From assembly GCF_045679555.1 (NCBI RefSeq), contig NC_092090.1, positions 31,521,288-31,585,287 of the forward strand: a stretch of DNA of 64,000 nucleotides, written 5' to 3'. Of the stretch, positions 28,101 to 57,906 are shown piece after piece. A program made the translations under genes and the position numbers. This DNA is from Salvelinus alpinus. Lineage: Eukaryota; Chordata; Actinopteri; Salmoniformes; Salmonidae. The number at the start of each line of letters is the position of its first letter. Position 1 is the stretch's first letter. The notes under the pieces are model-generated. The model made no database searches. It was not told where the DNA came from and saw only the letters and a list, made by a program, of their open reading frames with translations.

Positions 28101-31100
28101 AGTTGCACAATAAACATACCGTAATGTCAATGTAGTCGTGACTAGGCATATATGAAACTTGTGTCCTACAGGTAAGCACATCATTGTATTGGGAATACAT
28201 TATGATAAATCGGAATGTCGTGATGGCGATGTAGCTTTATCATTCAACACTGACACATATTTTACTTAACATCATAATGCTGAATCTTACTCCTTCCTCT
28301 TCCCACTTTGTTCCTTATAGCTGGAGTAACTATTTTCAGAGCCTCCTCATTTTTCATCATCGTCCAGACCACCTTTGGCCTCCAGTTGGAAATCCAACTC
28401 TCACCAATCATGCAGGTCTATATTGCTGCAAGCACCGTTTGGCAGCAGAGAACTTGTGGTATGTCTCATCATCCGTTGACCAACCACCACAGTCCACTGA
28501 GGTGTTCATGTTCTGGGAATGATTTCTTTTCCCTGTACATAAATACATGTTCACCCTACAGGTCTTTGTGGAAACTTCAACAACAACCAAGGAGATGATT
28601 TCAAGGTCCTGAGTGGAGTGACTGAGGGCACAGCAATTGGTTTTGCAAACACCTGGAAAACACGAGCCAGCTGCCCAGACATCAAGAGTAGCTTTGAAAG
28701 CCCCTGCAGTTTAAGTCTTGACAATGGTAGCTGCATGGTTAATCCCCTTCCCATGTCTGTTTTAATTGTTATGGAGAATGGTGCAAGTGTTTCTTAAAGT
28801 TGCCCTAACTAATTCATGTGGTTTATTTTTTCACTATTTCAGAGAAGTATGCCCAGTACTGGTGCTCTCAGCTGGCTGATCCTAAAGGGTTGTTTGCTCC
28901 ATGCCACACAGCAATAAGCCCAGACATGTACAAAGACGTGAGACCCCATCCCCATACTATTCATTTCTGAATATTTCATGAGCATATCTAATACACAAAT
29001 GTATGTATGTATCATGTGATTACAGTTGTTCTGGGGCAATTGAGAATAATTTTGCTTGCTGTTAAATATTGTTTTCTGCACAGTGTTTGTGCATATTATG
29101 CACACACAACTAATTGAAAATATTTTACAGTATAATATGGATGCTGTTCTGACTGTGGTTTTCTATTCAGAACTGCATGTATGACAGCTGTAACTGTGAG
29201 AAGAGTGAGGACTGCATGTGTGCTGCCGTCTCCTCTTATGTCCACGCGTGTGCTGCCGAGGGTATCCAGCTCAGCGGCTGGAGAGACACTATCTGCAGTG
29301 AGTGACAGTCACACCATAATACCTAAGAAGATGTGTCAATTGTGGGAGAATAAGATACAAATACGATAAATATTTACATCTAACAGTAATTGTTGCCATC
29401 CACAGACAAATACTCCACCTCGTGCCCTAGCACCATGGTCTACAGCTACAGCATAAAAAACAGTGATCGCTCCTGCCGTTGCTACAGCGACTCTGACTTT
29501 ACCTGTTCAATCACCTTCGAGTCTGTGGATGGGTGTGTCTGTTCTGAGGGAACCTACCTGGATGATGAGGGCAAGTGTGTTGCACCAGCCAGCTGCCCTT
29601 GTTATTACAAGGGCTTAGTGGTATCCCCTGGAGAGGTCATCAGCAAGGATGGAACCATGTGGTATGGACCGAGTTATTTACCTACCTATACTCAAACTGC
29701 ATTACAATGTAATTCACAACACATTTTATTTTAAAGACATATTTTTGGGACTTTATGAACCAAGGGCCTTGGGCCTTGCTTTCCTGCAGTGAGCATAGGG
29801 ACATTCAAGTACCATTAACATCATTTTATTTCAGCACCTGCAAGGAGGGCAAACTCCATTGTATTGGAGATTCACCTGATCATCCATGTAAGTTTATGTA
29901 TATACATTGTCAAAACATCTCACAATTTTGAGATATTGTACTGTGCCAGGCAACAATGAATTTGAAATAAGTCTATTCTTTTAATGGCACTCTGTCAAAT
30001 CCTATATACACATGTGGTGTGTGGTAGTAGTATGCTATTGGCAACAGAACCAGGCTATGTGCATGTTGAATTATCATCTCTCCATCCTAGTACACACTTT
30101 ACAGAGCATATTGATTTTGTGAAAGACACAACATAGTCATGATACATGAATTCCCTTTATTTCCACAGCATGTGTTGCACCAATGGTTTTCATCAACTGC
30201 TCCAATGCAAGCCCAGGAGTGAGAGGGTTGGAGTGTCAGAAGAGCTGCAATATTCTGGATATGGCCTGTGTAAGTCCCCTATTTACTTCGTCTCCAGGCC
30301 ATTTCACACAGCGGATATAAACCTGTGTACAAAATATTAAGAACACTTTCCTAATATTGATATGAATACACAATCCGTCTCAATTGTCTAATGGCTTGAA
30401 AATCCTTCTTCAAACTGTCTCCTCCTCTTCATCTACACTTATTGAAGTGGATTTAACAATTGACATCAATAAGGGATCAATGCTTTCAGCTGGATTCCCC
30501 TGGTCAGTCTATGTAATTGAAAGAGCAGGTGTTCGTATTGTTTCTACACTCAGTGTATCTAATGGCCAAAGGATTGTGAATAAAAATCAAGTGTAAAATA
30601 TAAACTTTCAGTTTTTTATATATTGGTAAATTTAACATAGTCTCCTAGCTATTGTGCACAGCGTATATAAGCCTGGTACATTAACGATTCCATTTTGTCC
30701 TTAGTGGGAGTGATCATATAGTTCTATGGGAGTTTCCTTATTGAGTAAAGTATTTGCCATCATCTAATTTTAGCGAATCACACGACTGCGAGGCGTGGCT
30801 CTGTGCTTGTGATGTGCTAGTGTATGGGGGAAGGTTATTGGGAAGGTTTTGTGGGAGATGATTGTTTGGTAGATTAAGCCGAATAAGCCAATACCTATGT
30901 GCTGGGAGTTTCTCCTGGTCTCTCTGTATTGACTAATGGCTAACAAAGGCCAAGTTTGACCTTTTGGTCCACCAGAATCTTCACGCATTTGGGCGGAACT
31001 TTCTGGGAACCAGATTAACTTATAGTTTACACCATTTTTACACAACAGATTTTCAAATCAATAATTTTCACTTTACAGATCAGCACAGAGTGCATTTCAG

Positions 31101-34100
31101 GCTGTATGTGTCCCTCTGGACTGGTATCCGATGGAAAAGGAGGCTGCATCATGCCAGACCTTTGTCCTTGTTCTCACAATGCAGCTATTTACCAACCAGG
31201 AGACAGAATCAAGGTCGACTGCAATACCTGGTAAGTTCATCTTGCCTCATTTGGGGTTTTAAACCAATTAAGACTTCAGTTTAATATCTGTTTTTGCCAC
31301 TTTCAGCACTTGTAAAGAAAGAAAATGGCAGTGCACAACTAACCTGTGCCATGGAACCTGTGCCATTTATGGAGATGGACACTACATTACGTTTGACGGG
31401 AAACGATTCACTTTCGAAGGAGACTGTGAATACACTCTTACAAAGGTATGCTTGCAGGGTAACGTGATAGTCTAAGTGATCAACACCAATATTATTTGTT
31501 TTATTGGTTAAGTATTAATACATGATGACCAATAAGGGTTTGTGTTCATTTTTAAAGGTATATACTGTAGGTGTTTCTGGGGAGTCTTAAAAGCAATATT
31601 TGAAACTGTTTGGACATTATCTGCTGTTGCTTTGTGAATGCTACTGTAGCATTCCCAACGAGATGAACCATTTCATTATTTCAATGATTGACTTACCAAG
31701 TGTGGTTGGAGATAATGTACCATCCACCATAATACTGTGTTGGCTGTTGTTACATTTATGACTGAAATTGAGTCTACCTTAAACAGGACTACTGTGGAAA
31801 CAACAATGCCAATGGCAGCTTCAGAGTCATCACTGAGAACATTCCCTGTGGAACAACAGGCACCACCTGCTCCAAGGCCATCAAGCTCTTCCTGGGGGTA
31901 ACTAGATTCCTGCTTCCTGCCTGGCACATACCATTACTGAAGCCAAGACTACTACTTTTCAGTCAATCATACATACATACATATATGCATGCATACATAC
32001 ATACATAAAAACATACATAATATAAAGCAGACATTACAAAATACACACATCAAAGCTTCATGAGGCTAGGCAAAAAAAAACACATTATAGCATACATTAT
32101 AACATAATCAGTAATTAGATACATTTATATTTAAAAAAAATCTCTTTCAGAACAATGAATTAATCCTGACAGAAGGGAACTACCAAGTCGTTGAGAGAAA
32201 TACAGGGGAGGCGGTTCCTTACCAGATTCGCACAATGGGCATCTACCTTGTGATTGAAGCCAATAATGGTTTGATTCTCATGTGGGACAGGAAAACAAGC
32301 ATGTTCATCAAACTTAACCCACAGTTCAAGGTACATTTCAACTTTGATTGGATGACAAATTATATATTAAAATATGGTTCTAGTATTCCATTAACCGATA
32401 TTCACAAGTCTGTTATGACTCCTTTTTATCATTCAACTGAATCTAATGCTATGTCCTCTTCAGGGACATGTCTGTGGTCTGTGTGGAAACTATGATGGCA
32501 ACGCGAACAATGACTTCACTACCAGGAGCCAGGCAGTGGTTGTCAATCCTCTAGACTTTGGAAACAGCTGGAAAGTCTCTGCAAGCTGCCCCGATGCAAA
32601 GAGCAAAAGGAGCCCCTGTACTGCCAACCCTTACAGGCAGTCCTGGTCACAGAAGCAGTGCAGCATCATACAGAGCAAAGTTTTCGCAGACTGCCATTCT
32701 AAAGTAGGTTTAGACTTTAGTCGTTCACTGAATGTTTTGGAATTTTATATGATCATGTTGACTAAATTATGTTCTCCAATTAGGTGGACCCCTCTTCTTT
32801 CTATGATGCTTGTGTGACAGACTCATGTGCTTGCGACAGTGGTGGAGACTGTGAGTGCTTCTGTACCGCTGTGGCAGCTTATGCAGAGGCCTGTAATGAG
32901 GCTGGAGCCTGCATAGCCTGGAGAAGCCCACAAATCTGCCGTGAGTTTCGAAATGTTCAATTCATTTAAGTGCTGACATAAAAATATGCTTAATCCACTC
33001 AGTTTAAACCAAATTGAAGATAATACTTACAGAGAGCTTTTGTCCATCACATACAGCACTGTTCTGTGATTACTACAACCCCACTGGAGAATGTGAGTGG
33101 CACTACAAGGCATGTGGAGCTCAGTGTATGAAGACCTGCAGGAATCCTTCCGGGAGCTGCTCCACTCAGATACCACCTCTTGAAGGTACAGTAGACATTA
33201 AATTAGAATCTACTTTGGGCAACAACAATTTTCCATAACATGTACTTAATATTTATTTAACGTTAAAGCTAGAGTCCTTAAATGAAACAGTAACAAAGTC
33301 GCCACCCCGCCTCTGTTTCGGTAAAAAGCTGAGAGATGGCCCAGGAAAATTGTGACCACTCTCAAATTCATACAGGGCTATGGATGCAAGGGCTGACCAT
33401 TCATGATATAAAAATTATTGTTTTAAGCATGTTTTGAGGCTACACAATGTTTGACTTAATTTGTATTGTTTACAAACATTGTGGTAAAACAAACATGTAT
33501 TTTGGGTTCTTATGGGGTACGACAGTTGAACTAAGCTCAGGAGGCATTTATAAGTTATATTCTTCAAGAATGAATGGGTATATATTATTCATTTATAGGT
33601 CAAAAAATGGCTGTAGCAACAAAATATTCTAGCTTTAAATTACCTCTATCAATCAATTACTTTTTGATCATTAATATTTGAATATTTTTCTTCTTCTTTA
33701 GGTTGCTATCCAAAATGTCCTCCTGCTCAACCTTTCTTTGATGAAGATATAATGAAGTGTGTGGAGAAGGAGCAGTGTGGCTGCTATGGCAGAGATGGAA
33801 AACACTACAATAATGGAGAAAAAGTACCGACCACAGAAAACTGCCAGACATGGTATGTCTTTAGTAATACAGAGAATCCTGGTCTTGGCTAAAATTGTGA
33901 ACACTGTAACTTTGTTTGAATGTCAAAAATGAAACTAAGTAGAATTGTAAATGTTTCTTTTTCCAAAGCTATTGTAATTCCGTGACAGTGGACTGCAAAT
34001 ACGATGAACAAGGTATGAATGCATCCCTGAACAAAAACAAAAACACATTAATAATGTTTTCAACATTCCAGTACCCTAAAATATATCTTATCATTTCAGC

Positions 34101-37100
34101 TTGCACTTGCACCTACAATGGGAACAAATACCCCTATGGGCATATCATATACGATACAACAGATGGACATAGCAGCTGTATGACAGCAGTTTGTGGGAAG
34201 AATGGAACCATTCACAGGGACATGTACCCATGTTCAACTACAACTCCAACAACTTCTATTCCATCTCATCCAACTCCATTTACGAATGTTCCTACCTCTA
34301 CATCATTCTCTACAGTAACAACAAATGTTTTCACTTTCTCAACACCAACGCCAACTGGTGGGTAACTGAAACTGATGCTTGAGTGACTAGTGACTAGTAT
34401 GACTTGGTTATATATCAGAGTAGGCGGATGAGGGGAGGACGGCTCATAATAATGAGTGGGAAAGAGTAAATGGAATGGTGTCAAACACAAGGAAATCAGG
34501 TGTTTGTGTTTGAGACCATTCCATTTATTCCATTCCAGTTATTACTATGAGCCCGTCCTCTCTGTTTAAAATTCCACCGGCCACCATTGTTGCATATGAA
34601 GTGTGAACACTACAGCAAGTATCTCTTATGATCAAAATGGCTGAAGACATTACTAACTAGGCACCTTCCTTAGATTGTGTTACATTACCACCAATCTAAA
34701 AGAAGAAAAGGTATTTTTATATTTTTGTATTTAACTGACTAACTGTAATGTATACTCTGATTCTATAGAGCCAGCCACATCTTCAACAGAGACAACAGCG
34801 TCTCCAACAACCTTCACTACTACATGTGGATATCCATGTGTGTGGTCACAATGGTTTGATACCACATTCCCTACACTTGGAACTCCAGGAGGAGACTCTG
34901 AAACCTACAACAACATAAGAGCAGAGGGACATGATATATGTGAGAAGCCAAGCAAGATCCAATGCAGAGCCCAGAAGTACCCAAATGTTAGCATAAGCCA
35001 AGTGGGCCAAGTGGTGCAGTGTAATGTAGCAGAAGGGTTGACTTGCAGAAATGAAGACCAGTCAGGCCCATTCCCACTGTGCTTTAACTACCAAGTTCGA
35101 GTCCTCTGCTGTGATGAAAATCTTTGCACATCTAAGCCTACAACCATTTCACCAACAACTACAAGACCACCTGTTACGAAGACAACAACAACTACAACAG
35201 CAACCACCTCCACTTTATCAACAACCACGTTGACTACAAAAACCCCGAACTGCACAGTTTGTGAGTGGTCACCTTGGTATAATGTGGACTATCCTCAATT
35301 TGGTCCTGGGGGTGGCGACAATGAATCAATAAAAAAGATTATAGAATCTGGGAAAGATATTTGTGAAAAACCAGTGGATGTCATATGCCAAGCAGTGCGA
35401 TATCCAGGGGTCCCATTGTCTGAATTAGGACAGAAGGTAGAATGTAATACGAAGGTTGGATTAATATGCCAGAACAAAGATCAAGGTATTCCTCCAATAT
35501 GCCTTGACTATGAAATTAAGGTCAAATGTTGTAAGACTGTGAAATGTCACACTACAACACAAGAAACTACACCTACTGTCACAACTACAACAATGTCAAC
35601 ATCCACTTTAACTACAATAACAAGTAAACCAATGACAATCACTACTCCTCCAACCTCAACTCAACCTCTGACCACAACTACAACTCCTACCACCACTACA
35701 ACACCCACTACTACAATGTTGACATCGACTGCTCCAGCTACCATATCAACAACAGTTCCATCGGCCACTACTCCTACACCAACTACTACAATCTTAACTC
35801 CGACAGCTCCATCTACAACAAAAACAACAACTCTGCCTTCCACCACTACTGCACCTCCAACCTCTACTCCTACATCAACCTCAACAGGAGTATCAACTAC
35901 CCCCTGCAGTGGTGAAGAAAGTTGTGTGTGGTCAGACTGGATCAACCTTGGTCAGCCAACCTCTGGCTCTGAAGGTGGAGATAATGAATCCATTAAGAAC
36001 ATCATTGCTAGTGGTTATCACATTTGCTCAGCTCCAGAGGCAGTTGAATGTAGAGCAAAACAATACCCTGGACTTCAGATCTCTCAGCTTGGCCAAGACG
36101 TGACTTGCAATCCATCCGTTGGACTGATTTGTCAAAACAATAAGCAAGGTCTTCAGCAAAAGTGCTTCGATTACGAGATACGAGTGAAATGTTGTCAATG
36201 TGCACCAACAACACACATCCCGACAACAACAACAACAACAACAACAACAGTTCCTTCTACCACTACTCCTACACCCACTACTACAATCTTAACTCCGACA
36301 GCTCCATCTACAACAAAAACAACAACTCTGCCTTCCACCACTACTGCACCTCCAACCTCTACTCCTACATCAACCTCAACAGGAGTATCAACTACCCCCT
36401 GCAGTGGTGAAGAAAGTTGTGTGTGGTCAGACTGGATCAACCTTGGTCAGCCAACCTCTGGCTCTGAAGGTGGAGATAATGAATCCATTAAGAACATCAT
36501 TGCTAGTGGTTATCACATTTGCTCAGCTCCAGAGGCAGTTGAATGTAGAGCAAAACAATACCCTGGACTTCAGATCTCTCAGCTTGGCCAAGACGTGACT
36601 TGCAATCCATCCGTTGGACTGATTTGTCAAAACAATAAGCAAGGTCTTCAGCAAAAGTGCTTCGATTACGAGATACGAGTGAAATGTTGTCAATGTGCAC
36701 CAACAACACACATCCCGACAACAACAACAACAACAACAGTTCCTTCTACCACTACTCCTACACCCACTACTACAATCCTAACTTCGAGAGCTCCATCTAC
36801 AACAAAAACAACAACTCTGCCTTCCACCACTACTGCACCTCCAACCTCTACTCCTACATCAACCTCAACAGGAGTATCAACTACCCCCTGCAGTGGTGAA
36901 GAAAGTTGTGTGTGGTCAGACTGGATCAACCTTGGTCAGCCAACCTCTGGCTCTGAAGGTGGAGATAATGAATCCATTAAGAACATCATTGCTAGTGGTT
37001 ATCACATTTGCTCAGCTCCAGAGGCAGTTGAATGTAGAGCAAAACAATACCCTGGACTTCAGATCTCTCAGCTTGGCCAAGACGTGACTTGCAATCCATC

Positions 37101-40100
37101 CGTTGGACTGATTTGTCAAAACAATAAGCAAGGTCTTCAGCAAAAGTGCTTCGATTACGAGATACGAGTGAAATGTTGTCAATGTGCACCAACAACACAC
37201 ATCCCGACAACAACAACAACAACAGTTCCTTCTACCACTACTCCTACACCCACTACTACAATCCTAACTTCGAGAGCTCCATCTACAACAAAAACAACAA
37301 CTCTGCCTTCCACCACTACTGCACCTCCAACCTCTACTCCTACATCAACCTCAACAGGAGTATCAACTACCCCCTGCAATGGTGAAGAAAATTGTGTGTG
37401 GTCAGACTGGATCAACCTTGGTCAGCCAACCTCTGGCTCTGAAGGTGGAGATAATGAATCCATTAAGAACATCATTGCTAGTGGTTATCACATTTGCTCA
37501 GCTCCAGAGGCAGTTGAATGTAGAGCAAAACAATACCCTGGACTTCAGATCTCTCAGCTTGGCCAAGACGTGACTTGCAATCCATCCGTTGGACTGATTT
37601 GTCAAAACAATAAGCAAGGTCTTCAGCAAAAGTGCTTCGATTACGAGATACGAGTGAAATGTTGTCAATGTGCACCAACAACACACATCCCGACAACAAC
37701 AACAACAACAACAACAGTTCCTTCTACCACTACTCCTACACCCACTACTACAATCCTAACTTCGAGAGCTCCATCTACAACAAAAACAACAACTCTGCCT
37801 TCCACCACTACTGCACCTCCAACCTCTACTCCTACATCAACCTCAACAGGAGTATCAACTACCCCCTGCAGTGGTGAAGAAAGTTGTGTGTGGTCAGACT
37901 GGATCAACCTTGGTCAGCCAACCTCTGGCTCTGAAGGTGGAGATAATGAATCCATTAAGAACATCATTGCTAGTGGTTATCACATTTGCTCAGCTCCAGA
38001 GGCAGTTGAATGTAGAGCAAAACAATACCCTGGACTTCAGATCTCTCAGCTTGGCCAAGACGTGACTTGCAATCCATCCGTTGGACTGATTTGTCAAAAC
38101 AATAAGCAAGGTCTTCAGCAAAAGTGCTTCGATTACGAGATACGAGTGAAATGTTGTCAATGTGCACCAACAACACACATCCCGACAACAACAACAACAA
38201 CAACAACAACAGTTCCTTCTACCACTACTCCTACACCCACTACTACAATCCTAACTTCGAGAGCTCCATCTACAACAAAAACAACAACTCTGCCTTCCAC
38301 CACTACTGCACCTCCAACCTCTACTCCTACATCAACCTCAACAGGAGTATCAACTACCCCCTGCAATGGTGAAGAAAATTGTGTGTGGTCAGACTGGATC
38401 AACCTTGGTCAGCCAACCTCTGGCTCTGAAGGTGGAGATAATGAATCCATTAAGAACATCATTGCTAGTGGTTATCACATTTGCTCAGCTCCAGACGCAG
38501 TTGAATGTAGAGCAAAACAATACCCTGGACTTCAGATCTCTCAGCTTGGCCAAGACGTGACTTGCAATCCATCCGTTGGACTGATTTGTCAAAACAATAA
38601 GCAAGGTCTTCAGCAAAAGTGCTTCGATTACGAGATACGAGTGAAATGTTGTCAATGTGCACCAACAACACACATCCCGACAACAACAACAACAACAACA
38701 GTTCCTTCTACCACTACTCCTACACCCACTACTACAATCCTAACTTCGAGAGCTCCATCTACAACAAAAACAACAACTCTGCCTTCCACCACTACTGCAC
38801 CTCCAACCTCTACTCCTACATCAACCTCAACAGGAGTATCAACTACCCCCTGCAGTGGTGAAGAAAGTTGTGTGTGGTCAGACTGGATCAACCTTGGTCA
38901 GCCAACCTCTGGCTCTGAAGGTGGAGATAATGAATCCATTAAGAACATCATTGCTAGTGGTTATCACATTTGCTCAGCTCCAGAGGCAGTTGAATGTAGA
39001 GCAAAACAATACCCTGGACTTCAGATCTCTCAGCTTGGCCAAGACGTGACTTGCAATCCATCCGTTGGACTGATTTGTCAAAACAATAAGCAAGGTCTTC
39101 AGCAAAAGTGCTTCGATTACGAGATACGAGTGAAATGTTGTCAATGTGCACCAACAACACACATCCCGACAACAACAACAACAACAACAGTTCCTTCTAC
39201 CACTACTCCTACACCCACTACTACAATCCTAACTTCGAGAGCTCCATCTACAACAAAAACAACAACTCTGCCTTCCACCACTACTGCACCTCCAACCTCT
39301 ACTCCTACATCAACCTCAACAGGAGTATCAACTACCCCCTGCAATGGTGAAGAAAATTGTGTGTGGTCAGACTGGATCAACCTTGGTCAGCCAACCTCTG
39401 GCTCTGAAGGTGGAGATAATGAATCCATTAAGAACATCATTGCTAGTGGTTATCACATTTGCTCAGCTCCAGAGGCAGTTGAATGTAGAGCAAAACAATA
39501 CCCTGGACTTCAGATCTCTCAGCTTGGCCAAGACGTGACTTGCAATCCATCCGTTGGACTGATTTGTCAAAACAATAAGCAAGGTCTTCAGCAAAAGTGC
39601 TTCGATTACGAGATACGAGTGAAATGTTGTCAATGTGCACCAACAACACACATCCCGACAACAACAACAACAACAACAACAACAACAGTTCCTTCTACCA
39701 CTACTCCTACACCCACTACTACAATCCTAACTTCGAGAGCTCCATCTACAACAAAAACAACAACTCTGCCTTCCACCACTACTGCACCTCCAACCTCTAC
39801 TCCTACATCAACCTCAACAGGAGTATCAACTACCCCCTGCAATGGTGAAGAAAATTGTGTGTGGTCAGACTGGATCAACCTTGGTCAGCCAACCTCTGGC
39901 TCTGAAGGTGGAGATAATGAATCCATTAAGAACATCATTGCTAGTGGTTATCACATTTGCTCAGCTCCAGAGGCAGTTGAATGTAGAGCAAAACAATACC
40001 CTGGACTTCAGATCTCTCAGCTTGGCCAAGACGTGACTTGCAATCCATCCGTTGGACTGATTTGTCAAAACAATAAGCAAGGTCTTCAGCAAAAGTGCTT

Positions 40101-43100
40101 CGATTACGAGATACGAGTGAAATGTTGTCAATGTGCACCAACAACACACATCCCGACAACAACAACAACAACAACAGTTCCTTCTACCACTACTCCTACA
40201 CCCACTACTACAATCCTAACTTCGAGAGCTCCATCTACAACAAAAACAACAACTCTGCCTTCCACCACTACTGCACCTCCAACCTCTACTCCTACATCAA
40301 CCTCAACAGGAGTATCAACTACCCCCTGCAGTGGTGAAGAAAGTTGTGTGTGGTCAGACTGGATCAACCTTGGTCAGCCAACCTCTGGCTCTGAAGGTGG
40401 AGATAATGAATCCATTAAGAACATCATTGCTAGTGGTTATCACATTTGCTCAGCTCCAGAGGCAGTTGAATGTAGAGCAGAACAATACCCTGGACTTCAG
40501 ATCTCTCAGCTTGGCCAAGACGTGAATTGCAATCCATCCGTTGGACTGATTTGTCAAAACAATAAGCAAGGTCTTCAGCAAAAGTGCTTCGATTACGAGA
40601 TACGAGTGAAATGTTGTCAATGTGCACCAACAACACACATCCCGACAACAACAACAACAACAACAACAACAACAGTTCCTTCTACCACTACTCCTACACC
40701 CACTACTACAATCCTAACTTCGAGAGCTCCATCTACAACAAAAACAACAACTCTGCCTTCCACCACTACTGCACCTCCAACCTCTACTCCTACATCAACC
40801 TCAACAGGAGTATCAACTACCCCCTGCAGTGGTGAAGAAAGTTGTGTGTGGTCAGACTGGATCAACCTTGGTCAGCCAACCTCTGGCTCTGAAGGTGGAG
40901 ATAATGAATCCATTAAGAACATCATTGCTAGTGGTTATCACATTTGCTCAGCTCCAGAGGCAGTTGAATGTAGAGCAAAACAATACCCTGGACTTCAGAT
41001 CTCTCAGCTTGGCCAAGACGTGACTTGCAATCCATCCGTTGGACTGATTTGTCAAAACAATAAGCAAGGTCTTCAGCAAAAGTGCTTCGATTACGAGATA
41101 CGAGTGAAATGTTGTCAATGTGCACCAACAACACACATCCCGACAACAACAACAACAACAGTTCCTTCTACCACTACTCCTACACCCACTACTACAATCC
41201 TAACTTCGAGAGCTCCATCTACAACAAAAACAACAACTCTGCCTTCCACCACTACTGCACCTCCAACCTCTACTCCTACATCAACCTCAACAGGAGTATC
41301 AACTACCCCCTGCAATGGTGAAGAAAATTGTGTGTGGTCAGACTGGATCAACCTTGGTCAGCCAACCTCTGGCTCTGAAGGTGGAGATAATGAATCCATT
41401 AAGAACATCATTGCTAGTGGTTATCACATTTGCTCAGCTCCAGAGGCAGTTGAATGTAGAGCAAAACAATACCCTGGACTTCAGATCTCTCAGCTTGGCC
41501 AAGACGTGACTTGCAATCCATCCGTTGGACTGATTTGTCAAAACAATAAGCAAGGTCTTCAGCAAAAGTGCTTCGATTACGAGATACGAGTGAAATGTTG
41601 TCAATGTGCACCAACAACACACATCCCGACAACAACAACAACAACAACAACAACAGTTCCTTCTACCACTACTCCTACACCCACTACTACAATCCTAACT
41701 TCGAGAGCTCCATCTACAACAACAACAACAACTCTGCCTTCCACCACTACTGCACCTCCAACCTCTACTCCTACATCAACCTCAACAGGAGTATCAACTA
41801 CCCCCTGCAGTGGTGAAGAAAGTTGTGTGTGGTCAGACTGGATCAACCTTGGTCAGCCAACCTCTGGCTCTGAAGGTGGAGATAATGAATCCATTAAGAA
41901 CATCATTGCTAGTGGTTATCACATTTGCTCAGCTCCAGAGGCAGTTGAATGTAGAGCAAAACAATACCCTGGACTTCAGATCTCTCAGCTTGGCCAAGAC
42001 GTGACTTGCAATCCATCCGTTGGACTGATTTGTCAAAACAATAAGCAAGGTCTTCAGCAAAAGTGCTTCGATTACGAGATACGAGTGAAATGTTGTCAAT
42101 GTGCACCAACAACACACATCCCGACAACAACAACAACAACAACAACAACAACAGTTCCTTCTACCACTACTCCTACACCCACTACTACAATCCTAACTTC
42201 GAGAGCTCCATCTACAACAAAAACAACAACTCTGCCTTCCACCACTACTGCACCTCCAACCTCTACTCCTACATCAACCTCAACAGGAGTATCAACTACC
42301 CCCTGCAATGGTGAAGAAAATTGTGTGTGGTCAGACTGGATCAACCTTGGTCAGCCAACCTCTGGCTCTGAAGGTGGAGATAATGAATCCATTAAGAACA
42401 TCATTGCTAGTGGTTATCACATTTGCTCAGCTCCAGAGGCAGTTGAATGTAGAGCAAAACAATACCCTGGACTTCAGATCTCTCAGCTTGGCCAAGACGT
42501 GACTTGCAATCCATCCGTTGGACTGATTTGTCAAAACAATAAGCAAGGTCTTCAGCAAAAGTGCTTCGATTACGAGATACGAGTGAAATGTTGTCAATGT
42601 GCACCAACAACACACATCCCGACAACAACAACAACAACAACAACAACAGTTCCTTCTACCACTACTCCTACACCCACTACTACAATCCTAACTTCGAGAG
42701 CTCCATCTACAACAAAAACAACAACTCTGCCTTCCACCACTACTGCACCTCCAACCTCTACTCCTACATCAACCTCAACAGGAGTATCAACTACCCCCTG
42801 CAATGGTGAAGAAAATTGTGTGTGGTCAGACTGGATCAACCTTGGTCAGCCAACCTCTGGCTCTGAAGGTGGAGATAATGAATCCATTAAGAACATCATT
42901 GCTAGTGGTTATCACATTTGCTCAGCTCCAGAGGCAGTTGAATGTAGAGCAAAACAATACCCTGGACTTCAGATCTCTCAGCTTGGCCAAGACGTGACTT
43001 GCAATCCATCCGTTGGACTGATTTGTCAAAACAATAAGCAAGGTCTTCAGCAAAAGTGCTTCGATTACGAGATACGAGTGAAATGTTGTCAATGTGCACC

Positions 43101-46100
43101 AACAACACACATCCCGACAACAACAACAACAACAACAACAACAACAGTTCCTTCTACCACTACTCCTACACCCACTACTACAATCCTAACTTCGAGAGCT
43201 CCATCTACAACAAAAACAACAACTCTGCCTTCCACCACTACTGCACCTCCAACCTCTACTCCTACATCAACCTCAACAGGAGTATCAACTACCCCCTGCA
43301 ATGGTGAAGAAAATTGTGTGTGGTCAGACTGGATCAACCTTGGTCAGCCAACCTCTGGCTCTGAAGGTGGAGATAATGAATCCATTAAGAACATCATTGC
43401 TAGTGGTTATCACATTTGCTCAGCTCCAGAGGCAGTTGAATGTAGAGCAAAACAATACCCTGGACTTCAGATCTCTCAGCTTGGCCAAGACGTGACTTGC
43501 AATCCATCCGTTGGACTGATTTGTCAAAACAATAAACAAGGTCTTCAGCAAAAGTGCTTCGATTACGAGATACGAGTGAAATGTTGTCAATGTGCACCAA
43601 CAACACACATCCCGACAACAACAACAACAACAACAGTTCCTTCTACCACTACTCCTACACCCACTACTACAATCCTAACTTCGAGAGCTCCATCTACAAC
43701 AAAAACAACAACTCTGCCTTCCACCACTACTGCACCTCCAACCTCTACTCCTACATCAACCTCAACAGGAGTATCAACTACCCCCTGCAGTGGTGAAGAA
43801 AGTTGTGTGTGGTCAGACTGGATCAACCTTGGTCAGCCAACCTCTGGCTCTGAAGGTGGAGATAATGAATCCATTAAGAACATCATTGCTAGTGGTTATC
43901 ACATTTGCTCAGCTCCAGAGGCAGTTGAATGTAGAGCAAAACAATACCCTGGACTTCAGATCTCTCAGCTTGGCCAAGACGTGACTTGCAATCCATCCGT
44001 TGGACTGATTTGTCAAAACAATAAGCAAGGTCTTCAGCAAAAGTGCTTCGATTACGAGATACGAGTGAAATGTTGTCAATGTGCACCAACAACACACATC
44101 CCGACAACAACAACAACAACAGTTCCTTCTACCACTACTCCTACACCCACTACTACAATCCTAACTTCGAGAGCTCCATCTACAACAAAAACAACAACTC
44201 TGCCTTCCACCACTACTGCACCTCCAACCTCTACTCCTACATCAACCTCAACAGGAGTATCAACTACCCCCTGCAATGGTGAAGAAAATTGTGTGTGGTC
44301 AGACTGGATCAACCTTGGTCAGCCAACCTCTGGCTCTGAAGGTGGAGATAATGAATCCATTAAGAACATCATTGCTAGTGGTTATCACATTTGCTCAGCT
44401 CCAGAGGCAGTTGAATGTAGAGCAAAACAATACCCTGGACTTCAGATCTCTCAGCTTGGCCAAGACGTGACTTGCAATCCATCCGTTGGACTGATTTGTC
44501 AAAACAATAAGCAAGGTCTTCAGCAAAAGTGCTTCGATTACGAGATACGAGTGAAATGTTGTCAATGTGCACCAACAACACACATCCCGACAACAACAAC
44601 AACAACAACAGTTCCTTCTACCACTACTCCTACACCCACTACTACAATCCTAACTTCGAGAGCTCCATCTACAACAAAAACAACAACTCTGCCTTCCACC
44701 ACTACTGCACCTCCAACCTCTACTCCTACATCAACCTCAACAGGAGTATCAACTACCCCCTGCAGTGGTGAAGAAAGTTGTGTGTGGTCAGACTGGATCA
44801 ACCTTGGTCAGCCAACCTCTGGCTCTGAAGGTGGAGATAATGAATCCATTAAGAACATCATTGCTAGTGGTTATCACATTTGCTCAGCTCCAGAGGCAGT
44901 TGAATGTAGAGCAAAACAATACCCTGGACTTCAGATCTCTCAGCTTGGCCAAGACGTGACTTGCAATCCATCCGTTGGACTGATTTGTCAAAACAATAAG
45001 CAAGGTCTTCAGCAAAAGTGCTTCGATTACGAGATACGAGTGAAATGTTGTCAATGTGCACCAACAACACACATCCCGACAACAACAACAACAACAGTTC
45101 CTTCTACCACTACTCCTACACCCACTACTACAATCCTAACTTCGAGAGCTCCATCTACAACAAAAACAACAACTCTGCCTTCCACCACTACTGCACCTCC
45201 AACCTCTACTCCTACATCAACCTCAACAGGAGTATCAACTACCCCCTGCAATGGTGAAGAAAATTGTGTGTGGTCAGACTGGATCAACCTTGGTCAGCCA
45301 ACCTCTGGCTCTGAAGGTGGAGATAATGAATCCATTAAGAACATCATTGCTAGTGGTTATCACATTTGCTCAGCTCCAGAGGCAGTTGAATGTAGAGCAA
45401 AACAATACCCTGGACTTCAGATCTCTCAGCTTGGCCAAGACGTGACTTGCAATCCATCCGTTGGACTGATTTGTCAAAACAATAAGCAAGGTCTTCAGCA
45501 AAAGTGCTTCGATTACGAGATACGAGTGAAATGTTGTCAATGTGCACCAACAACACACATCCCGACAACAACAACAACAACAACAGTTCCTTCTACCACT
45601 ACTCCTACACCCACTACTACAATCCTAACTTCGAGAGCTCCATCTACAACAAAAACAACAACTCTGCCTTCCACCACTACTGCACCTCCAACCTCTACTC
45701 CTACATCAACCTCAACAGGAGTATCAACTACCCCCTGCAATGGTGAAGAAAATTGTGTGTGGTCAGACTGGATCAACCTTGGTCAGCCAACCTCTGGCTC
45801 TGAAGGTGGAGATAATGAATCCATTAAGAACATCATTGCTAGTGGTTATCACATTTGCTCAGCTCCAGAGGCAGTTGAATGTAGAGCAAAACAATACCCT
45901 GGACTTCAGATCTCTCAGCTTGGCCAAGACGTGACTTGCAATCCATCCGTTGGACTGATTTGTCAAAACAATAAGCAAGGTCTTCAGCAAAAGTGCTTCG
46001 ATTACGAGATACGAGTGAAATGTTGTCAATGTGCACCAACAACACACATCCCGACAACAACAACAACAACAGTTCCTTCTACCACTACTCCTACACCCAC

Positions 46101-49100
46101 TACTACAATCCTAACTTCGAGAGCTCCATCTACAACAAAAACAACAACTCTGCCTTCCACCACTACTGCACCTCCAACCTCTACTCCTACATCAACCTCA
46201 ACAGGAGTATCAACTACCCCCTGCAATGGTGAAGAAAATTGTGTGTGGTCAGACTGGATCAACCTTGGTCAGCCAACCTCTGGCTCTGAAGGTGGAGATA
46301 ATGAATCCATTAAGAACATCATTGCTAGTGGTTATCACATTTGCTCAGCTCCAGAGGCAGTTGAATGTAGAGCAAAACAATACCCTGGACTTCAGATCTC
46401 TCAGCTTGGCCAAGACGTGACTTGCAATCCATCCGTTGGACTGATTTGTCAAAACAATAAGCAAGGTCTTCAGCAAAAGTGCTTCGATTACGAGATACGA
46501 GTGAAATGTTGTCAATGTGCACCAACAACACACATCCCGACAACAACAACAACAACAACAACAACAACAGTTCCTTCTACCACTACTCCTACACCCACTA
46601 CTACAATCCTAACTTCGAGAGCTCCATCTACAACAAAAACAACAACTCTGCCTTCCACCACTACTGCACCTCCAACCTCTACTCCTACATCAACCTCAAC
46701 AGGAGTATCAACTACCCCCTGCAATGGTGAAGAAAATTGTGTGTGGTCAGACTGGATCAACCTTGGTCAGCCAACCTCTGGCTCTGAAGGTGGAGATAAT
46801 GAATCCATTAAGAACATCATTGCTAGTGGTTATCACATTTGCTCAGCTCCAGAGGCAGTTGAATGTAGAGCAAAACAATACCCTGGACTTCAGATCTCTC
46901 AGCTTGGCCAAGACGTGACTTGCAATCCATCCGTTGGACTGATTTGTCAAAACAATAAGCAAGGTCTTCAGCAAAAGTGCTTCGATTACGAGATACGAGT
47001 GAAATGTTGTCAATGTGCACCAACAACACACATCCCGACAACAACAACAACAACAGTTCCTTCTACCACTACTCCTACACCCACTACTACAATCCTAACT
47101 TCGAGAGCTCCATCTACAACAAAAACAACAACTCTGCCTTCCACCACTACTGCACCTCCAACCTCTACTCCTACATCAACCTCAACAGGAGTATCAACTA
47201 CCCCCTGCAATGGTGAAGAAAATTGTGTGTGGTCAGACTGGATCAACCTTGGTCAGCCAACCTCTGGCTCTGAAGGTGGAGATAATGAATCCATTAAGAA
47301 CATCATTGCTAGTGGTTATCACATTTGCTCAGCTCCAGAGGCAGTTGAATGTAGAGCAAAACAATACCCTGGACTTCAGATCTCTCAGCTTGGCCAAGAC
47401 GTGACTTGCAATCCATCCGTTGGACTGATTTGTCAAAACAATAAGCAAGGTCTTCAGCAAAAGTGCTTCGATTACGAGATACGAGTGAAATGTTGTCAAT
47501 GTGCGCCAACAACACACATCCCGATCACCACAGAATTGGTTCCCATGACAACAACAACAACAACAACTCAGCCACCCATAACTAGTACTTTTCCTACAAT
47601 CTCATTTCCTGTAATAACTGGTGAAACAAAAACACCAACAATTCCATCCACTGGAAACATTGTATGTTTTTGCTATTTCAATCATCGTGATTTCTCCGTT
47701 GGTAAGTTTTTTTTCTCTCCACCTTTTCACATTTGAAACCTTTTCTATATTACCATTAGTTCAGCCATTCGAATGTTCAATTTATATTGAATTATACATG
47801 TTAAATTGTACAAAATGTAATACTCTTCTAAATACTTTCAGGCTCAATTGTTTACAATGTCTCTGACCATGATGGATGGTGCTACATTGGTCTCTGCAAC
47901 AAGACTTGCAAAGTAGAAACCCGTTCTGTCAGATGTGATGTACCAACTACCCCAGTTACCACTACTTCACCCACCACTACACTGCTCCCAACAACAACAA
48001 TACCACATACAACAGAAAGACCAACCACCACCCCAAAATATCCCATTGAGAACCACTGTCCCCATGAACATCCTCCAAAGCAGGTCTTTTCTCTTCTATA
48101 TCTAACCTTTTTGGAAACATTCCATTGGAATTATTATTTACAAAAGGGTGATTAATAAAAAATATACAAAAATATGATTTTGTAGACATTTCCTGTATGC
48201 CTAATACTTTTCTGTGTTTGTAGAATGGTGACAGTTGGATACATAACCAGTGCAGTAACGGAACATGTGCCAACGGGAAAATTATCTATGACCATGTACA
48301 TTGTGAGACTCCGAAGCCTATAGCATGTGAAAATAACTATCCTCCAATCAAAGTGTATGACGAATCTGGATGCTGTTTCCACTATGTGTGTCAATGTAAG
48401 TTCACAACAAATTTAAAAATAAGTTTAGTCTTTGTTTTACAAAATGCACTTTAGCAATTGATTTTAGTTCAAAATCTGAAACATAATCCTTACTCTTGAC
48501 TGGTTTAGAGTTATCTTATAGTTAATAGCAGTAAATGTACATGAATGTCTCACATTGGAAACATTTCAGCACCACACTATTCATTTAGCATAAAACTACC
48601 ATATCCGTGTCCTTCTAAATGCTAATTGTTTTCTTCTTACAAAGGTATCTGCTATGGTTGGGGAGATCCTCACTATGTCACCTTTGATGGAACATACTAT
48701 GGCTTCCAAGGAAATTGTTCTTACGTCTTGGTCAAAGAAATCCTGCCAAAGTACAACTTCAGTGTTGTAATCGACAATTACTATTGTGATGCCCCAGATG
48801 GACTTTCCTGCCCTCAGTCTCTGACAATTTATTACCAATCTTACAAGATATTCATGACCACGAAGGATGTTGATGGAGTGTTCACAAGTCTGGTAACTAA
48901 AATATCTCAAATACTGTATGTTCAAGACCTTTTCCTATAATAGAGATTAGATTTTCGATTAGCTTAAATATTTATTAGCTTTCATTTAAGATGGATATAC
49001 ATCCTCTATGTATTAGATATAGGAGATATTGGGTATACAAATTATTGTAACCATTTTGTCCATCTCTTAATATTTTTGTACTAGATTTATGTAAACCAGC

Positions 49101-52100
49101 AACGCATCATCCCAGCATATGAGACCAAGGACTTCCGCATCACAGACAACGGAATTGAGACCCTTTTAGTCATACCAGCAATTAATGCCAAGGTGTCTTT
49201 CACTGGTCTTATGTTTAGCATATACCTGCCCTGGGACAAGTTCAGTGGCAACACTGAGGGACAGTGTGGTGAGTACAGGTGTTTTATGGTCACTCTGTTA
49301 CCATGATTACCCCATGATGTCTCATTGTCTAACGATGGTTTTCAATCTTATTCAGGTACATGTGACAATAACCGGACAGATGACTGCCGCTTGCCAAATG
49401 GGACTATCGATTCATCTTGTCCAGACATGGCACACCAATGGCATGTTTCTGACCACAATAACAGTCAGTGCACACCACCACCACCACCAGAGCAGGCACC
49501 AACACAACCAACAGGCTGCGATCCACCCATTTGTCATCTCATTCAAAGCAAGTACGTAGCAATTAGTATTCACAATAAATCTACTCTGTAGTATCGATAA
49601 CCTCTCAATCAGAATAATCTCAGTGCGAACAATAACTTGACATACTAAAACACGGCAATCATTTGACAAAGCCTGATGACAAAACAAAGTGAATTATCAT
49701 ATTTAAGTATCTACTCTAACTGAAGCATAACCTCTTTTCAAGGGTCTTTGAGAGTTGCCATAAGATAATCCCCTACGAGCCATTCCTTGTGGCATGTATC
49801 TTTGATGTGTGTTATATGGATGATGTTACCATTGGCTGCACCAGCTTGCAGACCTATGCTGACGCATGTGCACAAGCAGGAGTCTGTATTGAGTGGAGAA
49901 ATTATACAAATGGACAATGTGGTAAGTAGGTCACTCCTCAAGACCATAAAGCTCAGATAGCCTCTCTATGATGTAACTTATTGGTTATTTACCTTTTTAT
50001 CTCCTGCTACAGACTTCACATGCGAAAAACCCAAGGTTTATAATGCCTGCGGCCCACAAGTTGAACCAACCTGTAATGCCTGGTATGTATAATGCTGTTC
50101 TTGTTCAGTGGATGGGTATAATGATTGGGAAAAGTCTCTCAGCTATTGATTTTTTTTGAATATCTCTGCAGGTACAATTTCAAATTTATCCAGACTCAAA
50201 ATGAGTTCAGCGTCATGGGAGATATACAATTGGAGGGATGCTATTGCCCCCCTGGTACCACTTTGATGAGTTCCAGTTCAAACTACTGTATCCCCAGCTG
50301 TGGTAAGAATGGTCAAATAATAGCATTGTATATTGAGGGTGTGGTGACTTACAGTATTGTGTTGTAATAGGAGCTACATCCTGCTGACCTTCACTTTGGG
50401 AAGAACAAAGTGTTAATTGTTCATTGCTACTGTAATTGTCTTTTGAAAGCTGGTTTAGCTTTTTGTAAAAAAAAAAAAAATGTCCACAGCATTTTTCAGA
50501 TACTTCAATGGTGTGGGGTTTGGTTTATTTTGATTGATATTGATTTATCAAGTGATTTCGGTACATACAGTACATTATCAAAACTAAGTAGTGTAATGGA
50601 CTTCAATGACTTCGTTTTTTAATGTATTTTTTTCTCTTTGGTTAATCAGATATTTGCCCGTTGCCAAATGGAGAATGGAAAGAGGTAAAATTGTGTTTGA
50701 ATTTCACTCACGGGTTTTAGGAGGACAGATAAACTATTCATTTCTGATATACACGCTAACATCATGTGGGTAGTTCACTTTTGACAATCATGTACAAGAA
50801 TGTATGCAATAATAACAACTACAATAATAATAATAATAATGTATTGCATTTCTATAGTGCTTTTCATAGAACAAAGCGCTTCAGTAATTTAGGATTCCAC
50901 ACACTGAATGATTGAACTTTGTACTGGTAGTGTCCATACAAACCTTGATATGCTTAAAATGTTCCTCATTGCAGGCTAATGAGACCTGGGTGAGCAACTG
51001 CCAGGATTGTGTTTGTGACCCGTACAGTCTGGAAATCCAGTGCCAGCCTGTGGCATGCCAACATCAGCCTCCTCTCACCTGTGGTCAGGAGGGCCAAGTT
51101 AAGGTCGTAGAAACCGTTGACTGTTGTCAAAAGGACAAATGCGGTGAGTGACTTCTTTGGATAATATGCTCTTTATGGAGGCTTTGGAACAACTCAGTAA
51201 AAACATTTACATTTTTGGTGATTACCTAATATATGCAACCAATGTGGCCATTTGCATATTTCTTTTTACAATATTTTTTTCTTTCCAAACAGAGTGTGAT
51301 GTCACACTATGCTCTGCTTCCAAGATAACTTGTCCAGTCGGATTCGAGACAGAGGCAACTATGGGAGTCTGCTGCCCAACTTATCAATGTCGTGAGTATG
51401 CGTTTGCATGTGCTTGAGTGTGTGTGTACAGTATTTGTGCATATCCTAGAAATCCCAACATGTTAGTTGCAGTATTGAATGATTTTCCATGTTCTTTGCC
51501 CCACAGTACCAAATGATGTCTGTGTGATTAACAACACTGAATATCAGGTGCGGATGCATTCTATGCTATGTTATTTGGCCAGTCCCACCACTTATATGAT
51601 CAACACTTTTGAATGTAACTTAATAAAAGAGGACAATGTTATTTTACTTGCATACATTAATAAAAAAATAAGTTCAACTAAACAAATACCTTCATTAAGC
51701 TATCAGGGTGCAACAATATTTTTTGGTCAATCCATCCATCCACATTAGATAGGACAAAAAAAGCATCTCAATTCATAGATTTTCCATTGAAATATTGTAT
51801 TTTCTCATTCCAGCCTGGTGCCAATGTTCCTGGGGACAAGTGTAAGAATTGTGTGTGTGGTGACAGGGTGGATGCCCAAACCCATCTACATATCATTGAG
51901 TGTCAACCTACTGAATGTGACACTCACTGCCAGCAGGTAAGTGATCTCCATTGACACATCGACACCCTTTGGCCTCATTATGTAATTCAACAATCTTAGT
52001 GTAATGTCAGTCCTTATCCATGTCAAAATATTATAATAACCCTGATTCCTATGTGTCCATCATTGGGCTACTACTGGATAAGTGTAATTACTTGTGAGTT

Positions 52101-53739
52101 ACCAGGATCACACATTGGTATAAGAGAGATCATAAAGGTTTTCTCCTCTCTGGTCTGTCTTCTTCCTTTCAGGGCTATGATCATCAAGCCGTTCCTGGGC
52201 AGTGTTGTGGGAAGTGTGTACAGACAAGCTGTGTGGTTATGCTGCCAGATAATACCACACACACTATTCAGGTAAAATAGCATCAGGCAGCATTATTTAT
52301 CTCTCACACAGATTCGCAAATTGCATTTTGTTTTATACAATTCATAAAACATATCAGTCCTATTTTAGCCTGATTATTTAAAAAGAGCAACATGTAATTG
52401 TAATCTAGCACTCAAGTGTTACGCAAAATAACTATCTTAGCAATGATATAGTATATCTTATCTTTTATCATTTGAAGAATCTCCTGTTGATATATTTCAC
52501 ATTCTCACCTCTACAGCCTGGTTCTGTCTGGATACCATCTGGAGACAAGTGTCTCAAGTTTGAGTGTGCAAAGATTATGGACCAATTCATCCCAATTGAG
52601 GCTAAGACTGTGTGCCCTGACTTCTACCCAGAAGACTGCATACCCGTAAGTTACAATAACCATCTGGCAAATTATCTGGGTCCGGGAAACTGGCCCATTT
52701 AAAAACAACTGGACAATGTGAAAAATCATACTTGTGAATTACAGTTTAAACATGCCCAGTCACTCAGACTAAGGCTTAATATAGTATACCTACTGTGTAT
52801 TTATGTGAGGTTATTGACACCTGCTGCTTAAGGTGAACAATGCAAGAACACTGCACTGAAAAACATGTGGAGTGAGTTTTGTAAACGCTACGTCAGTGAC
52901 TTAAAATTTTTCTTGTTTTTTCTTCCATTTTCTTGTTTTTAAGGGAACTGAAGTCATTGCTCCAGATGGTTGCTGCCATGTCTGTGAGTGTCTTTTTAAC
53001 ACCATCCTTTTTGATAGACATTTGTAAATCATTCTTGCCCTTTATCATGCATTGAAAAAACGATTTTAGCTTTTGAAATTGACACTTTTGTGTGCAGGTA
53101 TTAAAATAACTAAGCCATGCAACGTGACAAACAGCAAAGTGTACCTGGACAGCAATGGCTGCAAGTCTGCAAACGAGGTGGAAGTGACAACATGTGGTGG
53201 ATCCTGTGGCACCTATGCCATGTGAGTATTTTGATCATTACTGAAATATTTCAGGAACACTAACACATTAATCCTCCCAATTTAACAGAATTGGGCTGCC
53301 TGTCTAAATGCAAACTACAAATTATATTTTCACTATGTTAGGTTACAGTGGCTGTGTTTACAAAGGCAGCCATATGCTGATATTCTGCCCAATTATTGTC
53401 AAAAGAGCTCATCTGATTGGTCAAAACATCAGAATTCGGCTGCCTGTTTAAACACAGCTAATGTTATATAATTACAACTGCTACCATCATTACTTCCACT
53501 TAATAACATCACCTCTCCTTTCTGTTTTCAGGTATTCTCTTGAGGCCAACATGATGGAGCGCTCTTGTGCCTGCTGTCGGGAAGTATCCACCACCAAGAA
53601 GGAAGTGGAGATGATCTGCCCAGACGGGTCAAAGTTCAACCACTCCTACATCCACATCAATAAATGTGGCTGCCAGAGGACAGAGTGCGTGACCCCAGAG
53701 GCGACCCAGGTCACAAGGTCACGACGCAGGAGAAGATGA
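22119..53739 (+). CDS. muc5ac-like: Mucin gene 1: giant gel-forming mucin, MUC5AC/MUC5B-like
   Basis: Secreted polymeric mucin, read as 48 coding exons (listed in the block entries) totalling 19,413 nt, 6,470 codons plus TGA. Every junction is GT/AG and every phase is compatible. Order: signal peptide, three VWD-C8-TIL assemblies, one 12.9-kb exon with 26 CysD domains, VWD4-C8-TIL, VWC modules, C-terminal cystine knot. The segment after the third D assembly ([20 protein letters not shown] … CGKNGTI) and the CysD domains point to the MUC5AC/MUC5B branch rather than MUC2; exact orthology is not settled. The ATG at 22119 is preferred over the in-frame ATG at 22113: it has the better context (ACCATGG) and only it is conserved in gene 2. 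Expected role: disulfide-linked mucus of skin, gill or gut goblet cells. Confidence 0.93.
23012..23414 (+). repeat. Intronic minisatellite, 88-bp unit, about 4.6 copies
   Basis: Units start GTGACACTT at 23012, 23100, 23188, 23276 and 23364, each exactly 88 bp, and the array stops in the fifth unit near 23414. Units differ at only a few positions (TTGTGG/TTATGG, TTCGGA/TTCTGA). It lies in intron 2 of mucin gene 1. Confidence 0.95.
25011..26029. mobile_element. Long-TIR Tc1-like relic filling intron 6 of mucin gene 1
   Basis: The left end (25011-25233) and right end (25780-26029) are imperfect inverted copies over roughly 220 bp, with landmarks GACTCCCTTGATAAAG / CTTTATCAAGGGTGTC-type ends and GGGGTCAAAATGAATGACA / TGTCAATAATTTTGACCCC. 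Between them is a transposase remnant in pieces, with an internal inverted duplication around AAAATCTGTGGTTTGAATT (about 25365-25400 versus 25465-25490) and a nested MITE. It accounts for about 1.0 kb of the 1.13-kb intron. Confidence 0.75.
25533..25721. mobile_element. 189-bp palindromic MITE (hAT-like target duplication)
   Basis: Starts CAGTGGAGGCTGCTGAGG and ends CCACCAACCTCCTGTG, an imperfect terminal inverted repeat. The whole element is nearly palindromic around GGCATCAAACACATGGAGAA. Flanked by ATCCTAAT (25525-25532) and CTCCTAAT (25722-25729), an 8-bp duplication with one mismatch. A related copy lies at 34418-34586. Confidence 0.8.
27449..27623. mobile_element. Palindromic MITE in intron 10
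   Basis: The left GGGCTCTCCAACCATGTTCC-TGGAG… pairs with the right …CTCTCCAGGAACAGAGTTGGGA as an inverted repeat, and inner arms TGTAGGTTTT and AAAACCTACA pair too. This is a well-known type of teleost palindromic repeat. Confidence 0.75.
30324..30560. repeat. Dispersed repeat fragment in intron 19
   Basis: Begins GTACAAAATATTAAGAACAC and ends TTTCTACACTCAGTGTATC; contains TGGATTTAACAATTGACATC. It resembles the ends of a common salmonid DNA-transposon-derived repeat, with most of the interior deleted. Confidence 0.55.
31307..34357 (+). other. muc5ac-like: Gene 1 exons 21-29: D3 assembly and first PTS sequence
   Basis: Exons: 31307-31445, 31787-31897, 32151-32330, 32464-32703, 32784-32940, 33057-33185, 33702-33852, 33969-34012, 34100-34357. 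VWD3 (about residues 865-1080) starts [20 protein letters not shown] and has [10 protein letters not shown]8 ([19 protein letters not shown]) and TIL ([16 protein letters not shown] … [15 protein letters not shown]) follow, then the MUC5-type CTYNG/CGKNGTI segment. Exon 29 ends in a Thr/Ser/Pro-rich stretch. D3 assemblies form the N-terminal interchain disulfides in gel-forming mucins. Confidence 0.93.
31968..32021 (+). repeat. Interrupted (CATA)n microsatellite, intron 22
   Basis: Runs of CATA/CATG tetranucleotides with a few interruptions. Confidence 0.8.
34418..34586. mobile_element. Palindromic MITE copy in intron 29
   Basis: Same family as 25533-25721: GGGGAGGACGGCTCATAATA near 34432 is mirrored by TATGAGCCCGTCCTC near 34545. 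The ends are eroded. Confidence 0.65.
34769..47701 (+). other. muc5ac-like: Gene 1 exon 30: 12.9-kb central mucin exon
   Basis: One uninterrupted exon of 12,933 nt (acceptor TTCTATAG, donor GTAAGT). It encodes CysD1 (from about 34823, CVWSQW) and CysD2 (from about 35250, CEWSPW), both divergent, each followed by a Thr/Ser/Pro linker. The 24-unit near-identical CysD array follows (35905-47505), then a short Thr-rich exit linker and the start of the C-terminal region ([12 protein letters not shown]). The linkers are rich in ACA/ACT Thr codons and are the expected O-glycan carriers. Initiation inside this exon is unlikely, because splice and phase tie it to exons 29 and 31. Confidence 0.95.
35905..47505 (+). 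repeat. Coding tandem array: 24 CysD-linker units of 486-498 bp
   Basis: Units begin (first Cys codon) at 35905 and recur at spacings of 495, 489, 486, 492, 495, 489, 489, 498, 489, 498, 486, 495, 498, 495, 498, 489, 486, 489, 486, 489, 486, 498 and 486 bp. All spacings are multiples of three, so the frame is kept. Each unit encodes a CysD domain with ten cysteines, a WSDW (WxxW) motif, an NES sequon and a Thr/Ser/Pro linker of about 70 residues. Units are almost identical. Length varies through an (ACA)n run after HIP. Two paired codons distinguish SGEES (10 units) from NGEEN (14 units) versions. Linkers before units 1-2 read LTPTAPS and the others LTSRAPS. Confidence 0.97.
47842..50302 (+). 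other. muc5ac-like: Gene 1 exons 31-38: D4 assembly
   Basis: Exons: 47842-48083, 48224-48395, 48645-48892, 49085-49268, 49356-49551, 49743-49921, 50013-50082, 50172-50302. After a cysteine-rich segment and a short Thr/Pro linker, VWD4 (from about residue 5780) opens with [20 protein letters not shown]. The GDPH at 48662-48673 is the motif at which MUC2 and MUC5AC can self-cleave between Asp and Pro. C8-4 is in exon 36 ([13 protein letters not shown]) and a TIL-like region in exons 37-38. No CGLCG in VWD4; the equivalent reads CGTC. Confidence 0.92.
50842..50895. repeat. Short dispersed repeat fragment in intron 39
   Basis: An (AAT)n run is followed by GCATTTCTATAGTGCTTTTC and AACAAAGCGCTT, a motif pair often found in teleost repeats. 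Too short to assign. Confidence 0.35.
53349..53459. mobile_element. MITE in intron 47
   Basis: The left TGGCTGTGTTTACAAAGGCAGCC and right GGCTGCCTGTTTAAACACAGCTA are inverted copies with few mismatches. The interior (CTGATTGGTCAAAA) resembles a known salmonid palindromic repeat. Confidence 0.7.
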
Positions 53740-53891
53740 ATGACTCTCCACTACCATCCCTTTACTGCTTAGATTAGTTCTCTATTTACGTTCAACTTGT
53801 TCACTTTCCTGCAAAGTAATCTGCTAAACGTAAGAGAAATAGTTTCAGCTTCTTATTCAGTTTGTTTTATTTTAGCCATTCAAAACACATA

Positions 53892-56110: not shown

Positions 56111-56447
<337 letters not shown>

Positions 56448-57838: not shown

Positions 57839-57906
57839 CCAGATCCATCCTAAGCACCTCTCTCATATCACCTGTGTAGGACCTGTTCACTACCCACAGG
57901 ATCACC

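Follow-up and report, generated by a model that had tools for sequence, protein, structure and literature searches.

A 24-unit array of near-identical CysD domains in the central exon of a MUC5-type mucin gene of Salvelinus alpinus, with a duplicated locus and a CysD-free neighbour

Does a gel-forming mucin of Salvelinus alpinus carry two dozen nearly identical CysD domains in a single exon, how are these domains kept alike, and what might such a chain do to mucus? These questions are raised by a window of 64 kb (C5:31521288-31585287 of the 2.37-Gb assembly), in which a first-pass annotation had described a mucin gene with 26 CysDs, 24 of them in a near-perfect tandem array. This gene, located on the + strand, is referred to here as gene 1.

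The central exon of gene 1 (34769..47701, + strand) was delimited using its open frame, its splice signals and a draft gene model. A single open frame extends from 34735 to 47733 on the + strand (4,333 codons); with an AG at 34767-34768 and GTAAGT from 47702, the exon measures 12,933 bp or 4,311 codons. WxxW motifs open 26 domains, at 34843, at 35266 and at 24 array positions from 35929 to 47230. Comparison with the array CysD revealed that CysD1 (34843..35115, + strand) and CysD2 (35266..35538, + strand) are divergent, with 46% and 56% identity, respectively. The 24 other domains, together with 23 linkers, form the array (35902..47502, + strand), which was defined by TRF, WxxW motifs and unit comparison. 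Pfam family PF13330 matched 26 stretches of the exon frame (2,070.5 bits, cut-off 22.4), and a second CysD profile built in this analysis likewise detected 26 domains. TRF reported a period of 489 with 24.0 copies, 98% matches, 1% indels and a score of 22,530, which is far above chance. Open frame, motifs, profile and repeat analysis thus confirm both the total of 26 CysDs and the 24 near-identical ones in one exon. The previously reported unit length of 486-498 bp was recovered from the 23 full units (162-166 codons). The linkers, given earlier as about 70 residues long, measured only 62-66 aa; they consist of 80% Pro/Thr/Ser, so that the central exon is PTS-rich, albeit in short stretches. 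This supports the proposal that short PTS linkers stand in place of long PTS repeats. At 100 aa each, the 26 CysDs account for 60% of the central exon, and 24 units of ~164 aa would account for ~60% of a protein of ~6,500 aa. Two other Pfam families, PEP_hydrolase and GULLO2-like, passed whole-protein cut-offs, but no single stretch was significant and we regard these matches as repeat artefacts.

The exons on both sides of the central exon have matches among the genome's other mucin genes, and paralogue matches, the draft model and Pfam together place the two ends of the gene. Upstream, at approximate limits, lie the N-terminal exons (23682..34357, + strand), for which Pfam reported three VWD, three C8 and VWC-like stretches as well as one TIL stretch on the draft-model pieces; the 241-aa piece adjoining the array on this side matched no Pfam family. 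The threefold N-terminal VWD-C8-TIL arrangement of secreted gel-forming mucins is therefore found on the draft model, though with only one TIL stretch. The C-terminal exons (47842..53829, + strand) comprise one VWD, one C8 and a cysteine-rich tail. VWC and cystine knot were not called by Pfam in this downstream part, where the last exons of the draft model are unreliable. Both mucin ends are thus present in outline. The draft model encodes 6,513 aa (6,470 in the first-pass annotation); one of its junctions is wrong, and neither its first nor its last exon is reliable. Compared by sequence with solved structures, the array CysD was closest to MUC5AC chains (5.5e-27), with MUC2 at 5.1e-22. Structure prediction for a single array CysD gave a poor model (mean pLDDT 63, three sequences); a Foldseek search with it placed eight CysD-bearing mucin structures on top, at query TM-scores of only 0.42-0.54. 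Because of the poor prediction and the low TM-scores, the fold assignment rests on sequence. A reverse-transcriptase match was also observed in the window (5269-6006, - strand).

A search of the whole 2.37-Gb assembly with PF13330, in which 80 of 80 scored candidates matched and all counts are lower bounds, yielded at least 80 matches. Gene 1 accounts for 26 and a C33 locus at 22.05-22.07 Mb for 35; among the remaining matches listed, at least eight belong to a cluster on C9, at least four to C6 and at least seven to other places. The C33 locus is collinear with gene 1, and its 35 CysDs divide into two plus an array of 33. Over both loci the linkers measure 62-68 aa. One extra base in a linker, near C33 22,062,600 (c33rc about 37.4 kb), splits the C33 CysDs into two frames of 7 and 28. 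This base could stem from an assembly error or reflect a genuine break, so the C33 copy may not be intact. Per 1,000 residues of open frame, the gene 1 pair contains 6.03 and 6.05 CysDs, a muc2-like pair 0.9-1.3, and four frames of the C9 cluster, which were counted as frames and not as delimited genes, 1.1-4.5. Four single-CysD frames of 114-133 aa were observed on C16, on C15, at C5:33.96 Mb and at C33:15.25 Mb, which presumably represent cartilage intermediate layer protein genes. An 88-bp tandem repeat (window 23012-23414, 4.6 copies at 98%) directly precedes the N-terminal exons of gene 1, and several of its copies align to one single stretch of C33.

Downstream of gene 1 and on the same strand, paralogue, primer and profile matches identify the 5' portion of another gel-forming mucin gene arranged in tandem, gene 2 (57807..64000, + strand), which starts near 57.8 kb; a perfect (CA)75 run (56173-56323) lies between the two genes. 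The central frame of gene 2 is located beyond the window, at 69,006-84,647 in extended window coordinates (5,214 codons). Its central exon on C5 consists of 64% Thr/Ser/Pro, with 237-bp repeats (42 copies in one stretch) and two cysteines in the frame. In the C33 duplicate of gene 2, the PTS exon has about half the C5 length and is split over frames of 2,216 and 289 codons, with 27 repeat copies. Retroelement-like frames, recognised by eye, occur between the two mucin genes of C33 at 22,035,900-22,037,600 and 22,015,000-22,017,000 and have no C5 counterpart. The central frame of gene 2 contains no WxxW motif on either C5 or C33. CysDs around the gene were sought by motif and with a profile built from 12 CysDs, which recovered 26/26, 35/35, 3, 4 and 2 domains in positive controls. 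It detected 0 domains in 48 kb around gene 2 on C5 and none above 30 bits in 50 kb on C33, where one weak match of 10.9 bits was seen; the CysD density of the gene 2 pair is accordingly 0 and 0 per 1,000 residues.

Atlantic salmon has the same kind of cluster; its muc5ac.1, muc5b and muc5ac.3 are assigned to chromosomes 11 and 26, with muc5ac.3 and muc5b both on chromosome 26 (PMC5728529). The salmon muc5ac.1 and muc5b primers fit gene 2 on C5 and C33 and not gene 1 (PMC5728529). On C5, the muc5ac.1 primers match gene 2 with one mismatch (F) and none (R); on C33, they match without mismatch, and the muc5b primers match with three mismatches (F) and none (R). An identification of gene 1 as muc5b was rejected, since of the two primers the reverse one alone matched, with one mismatch and in a conserved exon, and since gene 2 fits both the muc5ac.1 and the muc5b primers better. 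Gene 1 may correspond to muc5ac.3, which is expressed in pyloric caeca, but this is a guess. We take Atlantic salmon chromosomes 11 and 26 to be duplication partners, and because primers of genes on both chromosomes match here, the C5/C33 pair is taken as a product of the salmonid whole-genome duplication. The VWD/C8 ends, the MUC5AC-like CysDs and the primer matches of the neighbour together support the earlier classification of gene 1 as a MUC5-type gel-forming mucin. Judged from their sequences, the two genes suggest that a cross-linker-dense MUC5-type mucin stands beside a cross-linker-free one, two opposite designs of mucus polymer side by side.

The duplicated locus allowed the units to be compared within and between arrays. 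The 300-nt CysD units differ by 0.45% within C5, by 1.36% within C33 and by 3.8% between the loci, and five codons are fixed differently between the array CysDs of C5 and C33. When the 55 full units (23 from C5 and 32 from C33; the last unit of each array has no full linker and was left out) were placed in a tree, each locus formed one side of a branch with support of 100/100. Between the loci, the array CysDs showed a dS of 0.092 and a dN of 0.0148 (792 unit pairs, which are not independent). The flanking exons gave a dS of 0.080 upstream (1,223 codons) and 0.101 downstream (727 codons). The outermost exons of the model were excluded from these pools and some exons with weak support were kept; individual flanking exons scatter widely, from 0 to 0.38. 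Since dS between the arrays is similar to the flanking values, the arrays parted together with their genes and each was homogenised later in its own exon. Exchange of units between C5 and C33 is unsupported, given the five codons fixed differently and the dS close to the flanks. Within the arrays, dS is 0.0015 in C5 and 0.044 in C33; homogenisation is strong in C5, while the C33 figure is lower than the one between the loci by a factor of only about two. A mild edge effect is seen at the start of each array, where the first linker shares 84-89% identity with an internal one. Unequal exchange or gene conversion inside the exon would keep the units alike and let the copy number shift. Going by the title of a 2009 paper by Desseyn, CYS domains reportedly evolve in concert.

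The array CysDs are constrained at the same time. Between the loci their dN/dS is 0.16, and linkers differ by 11.4% compared to 3.0% for CysDs, which points to purifying selection on the CysD while the linker changes faster. The corresponding dN/dS is 0.53 for CysD1 and 0.08 for CysD2; within the C5 array it is 0.8, on very few changes. Ten cysteines occupy identical positions in all 57 array CysDs of both loci. Such a pattern agrees with the five disulfides described within the CysD fold (PMC11912381), so that disulfide cross-linking by CysDs, one of two modes proposed in the first-pass annotation, is not favoured and junctions are more likely non-covalent. Furthermore, each array CysD carries one NES N-glycosylation sequon (57/57), which is also present in CysD2 and is absent at that place from CysD1 and from the C9 CysDs examined. 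If used, this site could mask a CysD contact face, which would count against a role of the domains as junctions.

We favour, at a probability of roughly 60%, the reading that the product of gene 1 is a secreted MUC5-type mucin, polymerised through disulfides, whose closely spaced junctions are non-covalent contacts between CysDs. Such contacts would recur every ~165 residues, and many identical sticky domains would give a stiff, fine-meshed gel, to which the CysD-free neighbour gene would contribute a hydrated, brush-like polymer. The denser, finer mesh is what we infer from the sequence features described above. It speaks against contacts of this kind that CysD1 of MUC5AC is not seen docked in MUC5AC filaments (PMC11912381). 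The dN/dS values within the C5 array and of CysD1, the wide scatter of dS among individual flanking exons, the frameshift of the C33 copy and the lack of a cystine-knot call in the draft model likewise weigh against the favoured reading.

It is also conceivable, and a less probable explanation that nevertheless deserves weight, that unequal exchange alone enlarged the array and keeps it uniform, in which case copy number would be mechanically irrelevant provided that the frame is preserved. The different copy numbers of the duplicates (24 versus 33) and the presence of only 11 distinct units among the 23 of C5 are in line with such neutral repeat turnover, as is the variation in cys-domain copy number reported for human MUC5AC (PMC10983947). 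However, the constraint on CysDs between loci and the faster change of linkers argue against it, as do the absence of CysDs from the neighbour gene in both duplicates and the equal CysD density of the gene 1 pair, although the latter is entailed by a fixed unit length. Rather improbable is a use of the CysDs for covalent cross-linking by transglutaminase, or for binding another ligand such as a lipid or lectin, instead of one another. TGM3 is reported to form isopeptide cross-links in MUC2 (PMC8752817), and the array CysD contains several Gln and Lys; the one cross-link located in the text consulted, however, joins VWC2 to the cystine knot and does not involve a CysD (PMC8752817). The first-pass annotation had also allowed for the array being an assembly expansion, with a much shorter true array. 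Units that are 98% identical are hard to assemble, and the C33 duplicate shows the frameshift as well as two 100-base assembly gaps near, but outside, its array. Yet the window contains no N, exact repeats in the C5 array reach at most 1,297 bp, and the order of its units is irregular. Because the C33 duplicate has its own, different array of 33 units with separate unit sequences, the long array is unlikely to be a one-off assembly error, and we consider this explanation very improbable.

The favoured reading, a mucin with closely spaced non-covalent junctions, can be set beside known systems. Human MUC5AC and MUC5B share the VWD-C8 ends and a single large central exon that combines CysD with PTS; their CysDs, too, are nearly identical, and their cys domains vary in copy number (PMC9712336, PMC10983947). 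They are described with nine and seven CysDs, respectively, most of them separated by PTS repeats (PMC6861317, PMC11912381), whereas the fish pair has 26 and 35 with linkers of 62-68 aa. The fish lateral-line 'Mucin-5AC' (zebrafish si:dkey-205h13.2) is likewise a secreted chain, of 2-27 CysDs (27 in little skate, 19 in catshark), and its loss shortens the zebrafish cupula (PMC11765562). It is described as lacking the VWD/VWC ends of human MUC5AC (PMC11765562), whereas gene 1 has four VWD matches; as these flank the array on both sides, membership of gene 1 in that family was rejected. Consecutive identical CYS domains also occur in the recombinant rCYSx12, whose 12 domains are reported to stiffen mucus and lower its permeability (PMC6861317), in support of the favoured reading. 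That protein is designed, while the chain of gene 1 is natural, longer and part of a gel-forming mucin. The earlier suggestion of an under-described system stands in part: a large CysD number alone is not new, given the 27 of little skate (PMC11765562), but the array inside a gel-forming mucin appears to be. The duplicate, the separate homogenisation and the CysD-free neighbour had escaped the first-pass annotation. Among open-licence papers we found none on a salmonid CysD array. As far as this literature shows, the array inside a gel-forming mucin, the 35 CysDs of the duplicate and the CysD-free sister gene alongside in both duplicates are new.

With the flanking exons as a time reference, the two loci illustrate cleanly the concerted evolution of a folded domain inside a single exon. 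More speculatively, and doubtfully at present, the adjacent genes could encode complementary polymers, one rich in junctions and one free of them, that were kept after duplication, with the mesh set by their mixing ratio and by CysD copy number as a length-variable genetic dial. Natural polymers with 26, 35 and 0 CysDs on related mucin frames in one genome would allow the proposed role of CysDs as non-covalent junctions of mucus to be addressed directly through a comparison of their gels.
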